Notes under the pieces: generated by a model
Database searches by the model: none
What the model saw: the letters and a program-made list of their open reading frames with translations, nothing else
Told to the model about the DNA's origin: nothing
In this document: positions 924 through 59,295 of the stretch, piece by piece
How the letters are laid out: each line of letters opens with the position of its first letter
Position numbering within the stretch: position 1 is the first letter of the stretch
Origin: Oscillatoria sp. SIO1A7
Lineage (GTDB): Bacteria > Cyanobacteriota > Cyanobacteriia > Cyanobacteriales > Laspinemataceae
Direction: 5' to 3'
Length of the DNA: 64,000 nt
Assembly: GCA_010672965.1 (NCBI GenBank)
Contig: JAAHFN010000009.1
Location: forward strand, 132,682-196,681
Translations under genes and position numbers: made by a program

Positions 924-3900
924 TAACCTCCCGTATTGCTGGTACAGAAGCTGCTCGGACGCTGCTCGTCAGGAGCGGCATTTTTAGTAGGTTCTGCCTG
1001 CAACTTGGCGCATAGCAGGGTTTCAATCCAGTCGTCATCCCGGCTCACTTCCCGGAAGAATTCGTTAGGAGAATTATCGGCAGGGGGCAGGGTGAAGGTT
1101 TGGGCAAACAAGTCCGGCGGCTGAGACAGCAACCCTACATCAAAACCCCAATTACGACTTGGCCCATTGAAGAAGGGCGTCTTACCCTGACCCACGTTGA
1201 TGTTATAGATCTGCGGGTAGTCGAAAAGATTTCCATTGGGAGGAGGCGTACTCGGTATCAATGGCTGAAACGGTCCGCTAGCATATTTACTGCGACCCAA
1301 CTGGATGAACGAGCCAAGGATTGTTGTCGTATAGAAGTTTCCACGTCTAATGCGCCAGTTTTCCAGCAAGCGAGGCAAGTTTTGCATCCCGCCATTGTAG
1401 TCGCCGCTACCGCCATTAATAGCCCGGGACGGCGTATCCCGCGAGCCAATGACGAGATTAAAAGTTGTATCTTGAGCCCTGGGCACCCACCGGGTATCAT
1501 CCCTGACGTCTCTCCTGGACGCTCCTGCCTGGGGATTCGGGAAAGTGGCCGTGTTCTGTGCGGGTGCCCCTGTGCCGTTATGGATTTGCAAGACTGGCAC
1601 TAGCAGGGGTTGCTGCACTGTTCCGCTTGTTACTGTGGTATTTCGGTAAAACAGGGGATAATCGTAGCCCCAGTTATTGGCTCCGTTATTGTTCGTCTTA
1701 AACCACAGAGCATTATCCTGTAGCCGAGGTCGGTTTCCGCTGCTGTAGGCAGGGTAAGAGGTCATTGTACCGCCTGCGGTAACCTCAAGGTCGCCGTAAG
1801 TTGGATAATAAGTCGGTACTGGGCTGCTAGCGTCTGAAATACCCATAGGAACTGGTCTTGGTGGATCGGTTCCGTTGTCTTCTACAACCAAATTGTTGTT
1901 GTCGGTTCCCCCAGTAAACCCGGCATTGACTGTAAAGTTGCTCCCTCGCCATCTTAAGAAAGCAACGCGGCGAGGATACCGCTGATCTGCGGGATTTTTA
2001 GGCGGCAAAGCAGTAGTACCAGCTAGTAACCTGGTTGGATCGAACGAGGTTATCTGTACTAGCTGGTATGTTTTTATATCTCTTTCTACGTCTTCTGGTC
2101 GGTCTGCATTTCCATCTTCATTAACATCAATGTTGTCTCCAGCTACCTTAATGCTTGGATCGTCATCACCATCAGTAAAGTCATAACCTACCACCCAGTC
2201 ATCAGGTCCGCAAGCAGAGACTGGCAGCTTGCGGCAGATTTCCATTACATATTCTGGGAAACTACCGCGCCGCTGCACTGGGGTAACAAAGTTGTTGAAA
2301 TAGGAGCTGTTGCGAGGGGTTGCTGGATTGTTGTTGTTCGGATTGTTCTCGTAGCTAGCATCGGTGAAAGTTGTATCCGTGCCATTTAAAATGCCATCTT
2401 CGTTGGTATCAAACTGTCCGCCACTGCTCAAGCCATTGGTTGCAAAATTGTTGGCATAGAAGCCATTAAGCCGGCGAGCTACGTTAGCGGGTACTTGCCT
2501 TTCATCTAAGTTGACTGTAGTGTCATCTTTGTTTCCATTGCTGTTGAGATCCATGTACAGAACTGTCTCGTCCAAGGCAACCCCTGTATCGGTGCTGTCT
2601 CCATCATTATTTAAATCGTAGTTGAAGATTCCAGCATTGTTTCTCAGGTCGAAATCTCCCTCATTGCGGAAGCCGAACTGGAAATTATCCGATAGCAGAG
2701 TTACCGCATCGGCCAGCACCGTCGCCGGTCGCCAACTGTCCCCAGTGCTACAATCGGGCAGCCTCGGATCGTTAACGCGACAAGCAAAATTGGGATTGAG
2801 AGTATTCTGAGCCCGACTGTAGAAGTTGCTCCAATTTGCAGCCAAGGCATTGGTGAACTCTTCTTGGGTATGAGGATTAAAAGTACCCTGGATATAAACG
2901 GGCAAATCGGAAGCCAAGATCAGTCCCTTTTCCTGCACTATCCTTTCCACTGCTAGGGGCGGAGAAGCATCGTTTTGACCGTCGTTATTGCGATCGTTGC
3001 GAGCTAGTCGATCGCCGTTTATCAGCAGAATGCCGTTAGGACGGCGGGTTGGGTCAACTCGGGAATCAGTTGGACTGAGCAGTTCTATGCTCTCTTCAGG
3101 TAGAAGGTTTCCAGCTTCATCGGTTCTCCTGCTCCAATCCATCAGCGCGTCATCTCGGGTTGCGTAGATAATGCCGCTGTTTGGCAGCATATACTCTGGC
3201 TTCGGTTCATTATCCTCTGTAGCGAAGGGTACGTCTTCATTGCGCAGCAGGTTCAAATTCAACTGAGTCGCCCGAATTTCTAAAGGCTGGCGCTCTGCCA
3301 AATCAAGGTCGTACCGGCCGGTTAGCTGGTTGCGGTAATCGATTGTGCTGCTGACATTAAAGGTTTCGTCGTTTGCGGCTCTGTCCGGGTTAGTTGGGTC
3401 TGTATTGTCGGCATCTATAGCCTTTATTTGCCTTGCATCCAAAAAGGCCACTTCCCGAATTGCGTCGGTAGGAACATAAGTGGGGGGAGTACCAAGAGCG
3501 AACCCGTTCGTGCCCAAAATCCCCAAGGAACATAGAGCGGCGTGAATTGCCGATTGCTGCGCTATGGTGCGATCGCCAGCATCTTCCATCAACGCTTCTC
3601 TCAAGGGCTTGTTGACAAAGCGACCATCGGGAAAGACCAAGTTGGCTTGATGGTTGAGAATTCCTTCCACCGTCGTAGAAGTTGCCGTCCCCGGTAATAA
3701 GTCAGTTGTAGCATTCGGGGTAGCAGCGCTGGTCGGAGCCGCAGTGGTTGGAGGACCATACACAACGCCATTATTAGATTTGGCGTTCCTGTCGTCGGCA
3801 CCTGCTATTGGGCTTGCAGCTGGCTTTGCCGTTTTGCTGTTCGTCGGATCGTAATAGCTGCTAACGCAGGCTATAGGAGCTTGTTCCGTATCCCCCTGTT

Positions 3901-57502: not shown

Positions 57503-58057
57503 TTATTTGCTCTTGGCTTTGGCAAGGCTGGCTCCCGTGTGACCCGTGGCCAGCCAAAAGACAGCTCGGGCACCGTCGCGAATTGCTTTTTCTATCGGTT
57601 CTGGCGATCGCCCGGAGGGTACTGATAAAGGTTTGAAGCCAATTCCTCGGCTGCCCAAAACAATTTCGCCAATGATACAAGCGCGGCGCATATGGTCGTC
57701 TGAGGTAACTAGATAAACGCTGGTAATTTTGCGCGATCGCAATCTATCTACCAGGGTGGTGAAGTTAGTTACCGTATCTACTGCGCTATAGTCTAAATGA
57801 ACGCGAGCCCTATCTATTCCTGCTTTCTCAAAAATCCATTCTGCATATTCAATATTGCTCCCGCTCGATACCCAAATTTCTAATTCGGTATGTACGCTAG
57901 CAAATTCCGCTGCAAATTCTTCTCGCTCTATTGCCCCACCCAGGACTAACAATGCCTGGGGCTTGTCAAGATAATTTCTAAATTGCTTGTAACCCATCCA
58001 AGACACTACAGATAATCCTAATAAGAGCCATAGAAGACGAGGCCGCCTCGGTTTCAT
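57503..58057 (-). CDS. YdcF/ElyC-type DUF218 membrane protein
   Basis: 184 residues from MKPRRPRLLWLLLG; an upstream frame to 58114 is less likely. One N-terminal membrane helix is followed by the DUF218 domain: KPQALLVLGGAIEREEFAAE, VWVSSGS-like IWVSSGSNIEYAEWIFEKAG, YSAVDTVTNFTTLVDRLRSR and VYLVTSDDHMRRACIIGEIV. DUF218 proteins are linked to envelope synthesis but their reaction is not well defined. It is alone on the minus strand between MITEs. Confidence 0.88.
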   Translation of the reverse strand: MKPRRPRLLWLLLGLSVVSWMGYKQFRNYLDKPQALLVLGGAIEREEFAAEFASVHTELEIWVSSGSNIEYAEWIFEKAGIDRARVHLDYSAVDTVTNFTTLVDRLRSRKITSVYLVTSDDHMRRACIIGEIVLGSRGIGFKPLSVPSGRSPEPIEKAIRDGARAVFWLATGHTGASLAKAKSK

Positions 58058-58146
58058 ATCTGAAAACAACTTGAAATATAGCAAAAGATTAAAGCGCAAG
58101 AGATTAAAGCGCAAGATATTTCGTCAGAATTGAATTCGACGAAATG

Positions 58147-58236: not shown

Positions 58237-58391
58237 AAATTCTGGCGCCATCTAATTCTGACGCTAGAGATCGGGCGATTGCCAAAAATAGGTTCGCCCG
58301 ATCCAAATATAAGCTATTTGTGAGTTCTTAGCCCTGCAAACAGGACAGGTTAAACGGGACTGGCCGGACTCGAACCGGCGACCTAGCGCTT

Positions 58392-59258
58392 CAGATTTGT
58401 GCGAGTTTCCTCACTCTCTGGACTATTCCTTCACCATAAGCCCTTGGGCCTTTAGGTGGTGGCCGTAATGTTTGAGGAAGTTTCTAGGAGATAGAGCATA
58501 CTATCCGGTAAATAAGGCCCCACGAAAGAGAGAAATCTTTTTCCTTCCCGGGTTCCCATGCGCAGGCGATATGACCCTTTACTTTGGACTAGACCCCACT
58601 TAAATCCCCAAACTTCAGAGAAATAAGCGGCGATCGCCTCATTCTCTTCTTGAGAGACATAAGTATTCAGGTAGATTTCCAGGGCATGGATCTTGCCATT
58701 TTTTTTCTTAAAGGTCTTCGACCCTTTGTCCGCAAACCAAATTGCTATCCCTTGGGGAGTCAAGAAATTCAGGAATTCCCTAGTAATCTTGCGAGTTCCT
58801 CCTGGATATAGCTTTTTAACTAAAACCCTGGTTAGGGGAATCAGCTTGGGTTCGACGCGAACGAGAATTTGACCTTTTTTTGTCCGTAAATAGCAAGTTT
58901 TCGTGGGTTTTCTAGCGATTTTTTCGAGAATCTCTTTCTTAAAAAGCAGATAATCCTCTTGCTTTATGGAATGCTGGATATAGAAATTGAGCTTAGTTTT
59001 GGCTCCCTTCCCTAATAACATTCCCACCAGAATGCCCCGTTGCTCTAGTTTTGATGAGACATTATAGTCCATCTTGTCTGGTTTCCTCAAACCAGTCTCT
59101 GCACCTTCTCTACCCACTATATAATAGATAGAGCTTGGCTCAAGATTACCGTATTTGCACGGGCGATCGCTCTGGATCTCCCTTGAGTTACAAACTTAGG
59201 CTTCCTTGACTTTGACCACATTCACTTTTGGAGTTTCCCCCAGAGTGCCCGAGCGTTC
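58392..59258 (-). other. Group I intron (867 nt) in tRNA-Arg(CCU)
   Basis: The 5' exon ends in T and the intron ends in G, as required for group I. Core elements are visible: Q aatcttgagcc (59147-59137), R ggtgcagagactgg (59105-59092) and S aaggaatagtcc (58430-58419). A G-rich stretch ctgggggaaac (about 59243-59233) can pair with the 5' exon end as internal guide. The protein gene lies between R and S, that is in the P8 region. Self-splicing is inferred from these motifs. Confidence 0.88.
58452..59072 (-). CDS. LAGLIDADG-type intron protein with lysine at both catalytic sites
   Basis: 206 residues from MDYNVSSKLEQRGIL; GAGG lies 12 bases upstream. An earlier ATG at 59117 would extend through the intron R element. 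It is related to the LAGLIDADG_2 family: motif 1 ILVGMLLGKGAKTK (family: LLLGDG) followed by YIQHSIKQEDYLLFKKEIL, and motif 2 GIAIWFADKGSKTF (family: WFxDDGS), then EIYLNTYVSQEENEAIAAYF. The last acidic residue of each motif, which binds the cleavage metals, is Lys in both. It is thus probably not an active nuclease, but the frame is intact and it may aid folding or splicing of its intron. Confidence 0.85.
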   Translation of the reverse strand: MDYNVSSKLEQRGILVGMLLGKGAKTKLNFYIQHSIKQEDYLLFKKEILEKIARKPTKTCYLRTKKGQILVRVEPKLIPLTRVLVKKLYPGGTRKITREFLNFLTPQGIAIWFADKGSKTFKKKNGKIHALEIYLNTYVSQEENEAIAAYFSEVWGFKWGLVQSKGSYRLRMGTREGKRFLSFVGPYLPDSMLYLLETSSNITATT

Positions 59259-59295
59259 AGGAGGCGCTTGCTCTATCCATCTGAGCTACAGCCCC

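Follow-up and report, generated by a model that had tools for sequence, protein, structure and literature searches.

The tRNA-Arg(CCU) gene of Oscillatoria sp. SIO1A7 is interrupted by a group I intron that encodes a LAGLIDADG protein in J7/3. The protein has an I-SceI-like predicted fold, has lost both catalytic acids and is maintained by purifying selection. Since both residues needed for cutting are gone and selection maintains the remainder across dozens of species, the protein has probably become a tRNA-splicing helper. As judged from the sequence, it would be a former homing endonuclease retained for another nucleic-acid-binding job, most likely that of a splicing maturase for its own intron. 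The window is the whole stretch of DNA analysed, 64,000 nucleotides long, and its positions are used below.

The split tRNA-Arg(CCU) gene and its group I intron

On the minus strand, the tRNA-Arg(CCU) gene runs from 59295 to 58355 and is split after U36 by a group I intron of 867 nt. Exon reading, relatives and ARAGORN place the 5' exon at 59259-59295 (GGGGCTGTAGCTCAGATGGATAGAGCAAGCGCCTCCT), which ends with GCGCCTCCT at U36, and the 3' exon at 58355-58391 (AAGCGCTAGGTCGCCGGTTCGAGTCCGGCCAGTCCCG), which extends from AAGCGCTAGG to CAGTCCCG. The joined exons give a tRNA of 74 nt that ARAGORN folds as tRNA-Arg(cct). With the unspliced DNA, ARAGORN in intron mode also recovers the gene with an intron of 867 nt and puts the cut at position 39. 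We place it after position 36, because related genomes with intronless alleles, L078 (...GCCTCCTAAGCG...) among them, show the exon boundary to be there, in agreement with the rule that the 5' exon ends in U and the intron in the omega G. In dozens of other genomes of the order, a group I intron interrupts the tRNA gene at this position between the same exons. The first-pass annotation had proposed the split gene, the cut directly after anticodon position 36 and the 5' T and 3' G; it had also called for an intron-aware tRNA search and a survey of related genomes for intronless alleles. All of these proposals hold, and both checks came out in their favour.

It had further considered that the split gene could be a relic beside a second, intact trnR(CCU). 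A search of the genome (9.08 Mb, estimated completeness 100%) turned up no second CCU tRNA gene, so the relic reading is not supported. The sole pattern match within a tRNA, at C79:21391, was rejected as a candidate because it reads as a class II tRNA with the loop CTGCTAA, that is Ser-GCT. The same genome contains dense tRNA arrays (G000:C79:20017-21769, C172:110740-112065 and C106:127468-134820), in which some tRNAs have weak scores, as in mobile elements.

The intron spans 58392-59258 on the minus strand (GAACGC...AAATCTG, omega G at 58392), as determined from RF00028 and same-site introns. The RF00028 match at 58399-59271 covers the full model length with 47 bits and an E-value of 3.2e-10. 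The covariance-model check suggested earlier thus yields a match, albeit one that misses the gathering score of 50 by 3 bits, a shortfall that is probably explained by the long insert. An internal guide GGG (59248-59250, minus strand), assigned by sequence reading, could pair with the exon CCU as a P1 of 3 bp; the surrounding TCGGGC is conserved in nearly all same-site introns. P3 is formed by GUGGUC (59214-59219) and GGCCAC (58459-58464), both on the minus strand. Over 61 introns all 366 of 366 cells are paired, including compensatory changes from G-C to A-U and from U-A to C-G. P7 pairs GACU (59094-59097, from the RF00028 alignment and family comparison) with AGUC (58421-58424, from the RF00028 alignment), again on the minus strand. 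The window intron combines the P3 and P7 core helices with the 5'-exon U and the terminal G expected of group I introns.

A DUF218/YdcF-like gene (57503-58114, minus strand, Pfam) adjoins the tRNA. Among the loci searched, 63 (including some duplicates) have it beside trnR, next to intron versions that carry the open reading frame (ORF+), lack it (ORF-less) or bear an HNH gene. As this neighbour is kept beside all intron versions, we treat them as one orthologous locus. In the HNH-bearing version, an HNH_2 endonuclease gene lies on the opposite strand in the P5 region instead (L059 1589-2050 and L064 1588-2055, both minus strand).

Insertion of the gene in J7/3 and helix P7.1

The ORF-less introns at the trnR(CCU) site are 204-323 nt long and read AGAGACUAGACGGCCACCACCUAAAGG..., that is the P7 5' strand, a J7/3 of 4 nt, the P3 3' strand and P8. 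In most ORF+ introns the insert between AGAGACU and GGCCAC measures 624-636 nt. The gene is therefore inserted in J7/3, between the P7 5' strand and the P3 3' strand, and is closed by a covarying extra helix, P7.1. The first-pass annotation had located the gene in the P8 region. We reject this placement because the RF00028 alignment had misplaced the P3 3' strand inside the ORF; comparison with the ORF-less introns puts it at GGCCAC, the end of the ORF, and the P3 covariation and P7.1 point to the same site.

P7.1 is formed by GUUUGAGGAA (59083-59092) and UUCCUCAAAC (58470-58479), both on the minus strand. Pairing is found in 205 of 210 cells over 30 distinct ORF+ sequences; shuffling of the 3' strands between sequences lowers this to 165 +/- 5. 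RNA structure and coding sequence overlap extensively: the last codons of the ORF are at the same time the 3' strands of P7.1 and of P3 and the start of P8, stop codon UAA included. The P7.1 5' strand in turn holds a Shine-Dalgarno-like motif, GAGG in the window and GAGG, AGGGAG or AAGGAG among family members. From this location it follows that the folded core should hide the Shine-Dalgarno sequence, so that P7.1 may act as a translation switch that conceals it once the core has folded.

In one clade (L002, L003, L004, L006, L008, L017, L020, L023, L024 and L042) the start codon is apparently AUA, in every case 7-10 nt behind AAGGAG; in L008, L024 and L042 there is no usual in-frame start codon between the upstream stop and this AUA. 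Six ORF-less introns (L079, L080, L081, L082, L083 and L086) retain a P7.1-like insertion of ~40-85 nt in J7/3. Judged from the sequences, either the gene was lost from these introns or P7.1 came first and served as a landing site.

Loss of the catalytic acids and selection on the protein

The LAGLIDADG_2 ORF (58452-59072, minus strand) extends from ATG to TAA and encodes 206 aa, with a PF03161 match at an E-value of 1.2e-33. The ATG at 59072 coincides with a conserved MDY/IDY. A structure model of the window protein has a pLDDT of 90.7 and a pTM of 0.88; a first model, computed from 5 sequences, reached a pLDDT of 45 and was discarded. Among solved structures, I-SceI (Z 21.2, 186 aa, 2.5 A) comes closest in fold, just ahead of I-WcaI (Z 20.9); the bI3 maturase, I-AniI and WhiA (Z 13.4) follow at lower scores. 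Profile match, model and I-SceI match thus agree on a LAGLIDADG fold with two motif helices. Neither motif contributes its catalytic acid. In the sequence alignment, codon 22 (AAG, 59007-59009, minus strand; motif 1 LVGMLLGK) aligns with I-SceI Asp44 and codon 116 (AAA, 58725-58727, minus strand; motif 2 IAIWFADK) with I-SceI Asp145, the catalytic acids of that enzyme. Both are Lys in the window protein. An intron-encoded LAGLIDADG gene had been recognised correctly from the sequence; what the lysines contradict is a normal LAGLIDADG endonuclease.

Sampling of 391 genomes in the order yields at least 41 in which the same 5' tRNA-Arg(CCU) half is followed immediately by a close homologue; in 37 of these 41 the 3' half is matched as well. 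All close copies lie inside the tRNA-Arg(CCU) intron at the same site. Within the window's own family, the ORF is present in 14/14 genomes listed, with two copies frameshifted. The arrangement had been called uncommon, a view that does not extend to this order, where it is not rare.

Catalytic positions were counted over the 38 copies with an intact frame. Both aspartates are kept in only two (L022 and L023), Asp is at neither position in 28, and in 25 both positions lack an acid. The residue at position 22 can be D, E, Q, K, A, T, C, V, N, W, H, R or G. No other of the 206 sites reaches so high an entropy, even though L19, L20 and G21 next to it do not vary. At position 116, beside the invariant D115 and G117, nine residue types occur (K, R, D, N, S, Q, H, A, C). 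Relatives outside tRNA introns (phage contigs, nrd introns, inteins and stand-alone genes) show D/D in 25 of 25 non-redundant sequences. The positions conserved in these relatives and lost in the trnR family are only 22 and 116, together with a mild change from Tyr to Phe at 113. On a tree built without both columns, parsimony requires 17 residue changes at position 22 and 12 at position 116; since the deep branches of the protein tree lack resolution, independent losses are given here as a parsimony count only.

These counts bear directly on whether the protein might still cut or nick DNA by way of other residues. L022 and L023 with both aspartates, and the eight copies with Asp at position 22, are in line with such activity. 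Metals are, however, held by the acids of the LAGLIDADG motifs (PMC5344465), and with 25/38 copies lacking an acid at either position we consider an active enzyme highly improbable.

Purifying selection maintains the protein independently of nuclease activity. Pairs changed at both sites have dN/dS of ~0.02-0.4 overall: 0.075-0.395 in the Q/R clade of eight genomes, 0.02-0.08 for E/R pairs, 0.16 for R/C with C/C and 0.155 for W/K. The values are pairwise NG86 estimates on related sequences and give the direction of selection rather than its exact strength. In lineages dead at both positions the length is constant and the frames stay open. Where pairs are more diverged, the neutral chance of a stop-free frame in one sequence is 0.0003-0.0035, an estimate that is conservative in ignoring indels.

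This result also weighs on a decaying homing endonuclease, functionless after intron fixation and drifting to extinction. The cycle of invasion, degeneration and loss is the usual fate of such genes (PMC1995217, PMC13405050), and the lost catalytic acids, three frameshifted copies and introns with P7.1 but without ORF would all fit it. Against it, dN/dS stays well below 1 where both sites had already been lost, length and frame persist over distances at which a neutral sequence should almost certainly have picked up stops, and the catalytic positions are lost selectively while their neighbours stay invariant. Decay is already disfavoured by dN/dS and the stop-free frames, and we regard it as unlikely. 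The gene can nonetheless be lost, as indicated by P7.1 without a gene in several ORF-less introns and by the three frameshifted copies. The latter (L042, L044 and L045) break at a shared run of 9-10 A (codons FKKKN), which may reflect decay, assembly error or programmed slippage.

A related LAGLIDADG_2 protein occurs in an intron of another tRNA gene as well. A tRNA-Asn(GUU) gene is split by a group I intron in L046 (approx. 1936-2797, minus strand), with matching stretches in L047 and L048 (genomes G108, G032 and G074). By sequence reading the intron sits between U35 and U36; its protein has Lys or Glu in place of the motif-1 acid and keeps the Asp of motif 2. We found no description of a bacterial tRNA-Asn group I intron in the accessible literature. 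In L049 (2588-3628, minus strand), an nrd-like gene has a pair of group I introns together with a match to group II domain V/VI, all in ~1 kb.

Proposed function and known systems

We propose that the intron is an IC3-like group I ribozyme, which self-splices from the tRNA-Arg(CCU) precursor, and that the gene of an I-SceI-type homing endonuclease was inserted into its J7/3 and then closed off by P7.1. Once the intron site was fixed, DNA cutting would have become useless, and both catalytic aspartates could drift to Lys, Arg, Gln, Val, Trp, Cys and other residues in many lineages. The LAGLIDADG scaffold would then have been retained by purifying selection for a second function, presumably RNA binding that aids folding of the intron around a core into which ~620 nt of coding sequence are inserted. 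The location of all close copies within the tRNA-Arg(CCU) intron, the RNA they would serve, is as expected for such a maturase; L022 and L023 with both aspartates count against it. A weaker ribozyme core in ORF+ introns was considered as further support and dropped, as the comparison of P4-P6 shows none (MFE per nt of -0.327 in ORF+ and -0.293 in ORF-less introns). The core of ORF+ introns is not weaker, so a dependence on the protein is not visible in the RNA.

Two other jobs for the scaffold have to be weighed against splicing of its own intron. WhiA is a LAGLIDADG-derived transcription factor and I-TevI is an autorepressor, and the protein could likewise be a non-cutting DNA-binding regulator at trnR or at another site. 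WhiA is among the fold matches, and the Lys or Arg at position 116 in 25/38 copies would suit metal-free backbone binding, of DNA or equally of RNA. With 206 aa, however, there is no room for a second domain such as the helix-turn-helix of WhiA, the intron destroys the protein's own DNA target, and every close copy of the gene sits within the intron, a location that speaks for a role in cis on that intron. A regulator is therefore improbable in our view. The protein could instead be involved in trans in the splicing of the tRNA-Leu intron, since both introns are IC3-like and are the only two group I matches in the genome search. tRNA-Leu(UAA) introns, however, self-splice and are widespread in cyanobacteria, also without such a protein. 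Although trans-acting maturases are known (PMC3073962), we give this role very little weight.

A maturase acting on its own intron remains our preferred reading, and it leads to the prediction that maturation of a bacterial tRNA may require a protein encoded in its intron. Beyond that, there may be a wider pattern, which we put forward tentatively: dedicated maturases derived from I-SceI-type enzymes by repeated loss of both acids could form a widespread bacterial family, tRNA-Arg(CCU) production could depend on them in many cyanobacteria, and the host RNA could time their translation. Such self-timing would build on the Shine-Dalgarno sequence in P7.1 and on the C-terminal codons that form P7.1, P3 and P8.

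Bacterial tRNA group I introns are mostly 200-320 nt long and without genes. The window intron shares with those of tRNA-Leu(UAA), tRNA-Ile(CAU), alpha-proteobacterial tRNA-Arg(CCU) and tRNA-fMet the insertion in the anticodon loop after U, a short P1, an IC3-like core and the omega G, and differs from them by the gene of 206 codons in J7/3. Introns are known in four bacterial tRNA genes (PMC1995217), and, according to a survey from 2017, those of tRNA-Leu and tRNA-fMet were the only ones known until then in cyanobacteria (PMC5733544). Of the proteins encoded in tRNA introns, the characterised one is a PD-(D/E)XK enzyme encoded in P1 of the Synechocystis tRNA-fMet intron (PMC3073962; PMC1995217). 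In the accessible literature, we found no earlier description of the LAGLIDADG family in tRNA-Arg(CCU) introns.

With the monomeric endonucleases I-SceI and I-WcaI, the window protein has in common the predicted fold (Z 21), two motif helices and profile matches at E-values of 1e-9 to 1e-10; in contrast to them, it has Lys for both catalytic aspartates. Degenerate LAGLIDADG maturases are known mainly from organelles. The organellar bI3, bI4 and I-AniI likewise use an intron-encoded LAGLIDADG scaffold with a degenerate or separable nuclease function; they reside in introns of mitochondrial protein genes, whereas the gene for our putative maturase resides in a bacterial tRNA intron. The transition from endonuclease to maturase is usually argued from fungal mitochondria. 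With at least 38 homologues at one orthologous locus, in a series from both residues kept (L022 and L023) through single-dead to fully dead proteins, it can be put to a direct test in bacteria using small purified components.

Among the group I maturases characterised so far, many are LAGLIDADG proteins that are either degenerate or bifunctional (PMC3073962). Maturase-like activity was reported for the LAGLIDADG protein of the Thermotoga neapolitana 23S rRNA intron (PMC3984707), which is also bacterial and intron-encoded and differs in its rRNA host gene. LAGLIDADG ORFs in coral cox1 introns have lost the catalytic acids under purifying selection (PMC5344465), like the family described here, in this case in animal mitochondria and in a protein-coding host gene. 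What appears to be new in the window is thus a probable bacterial tRNA-intron form of a degenerate LAGLIDADG maturase type found mainly in organelles.
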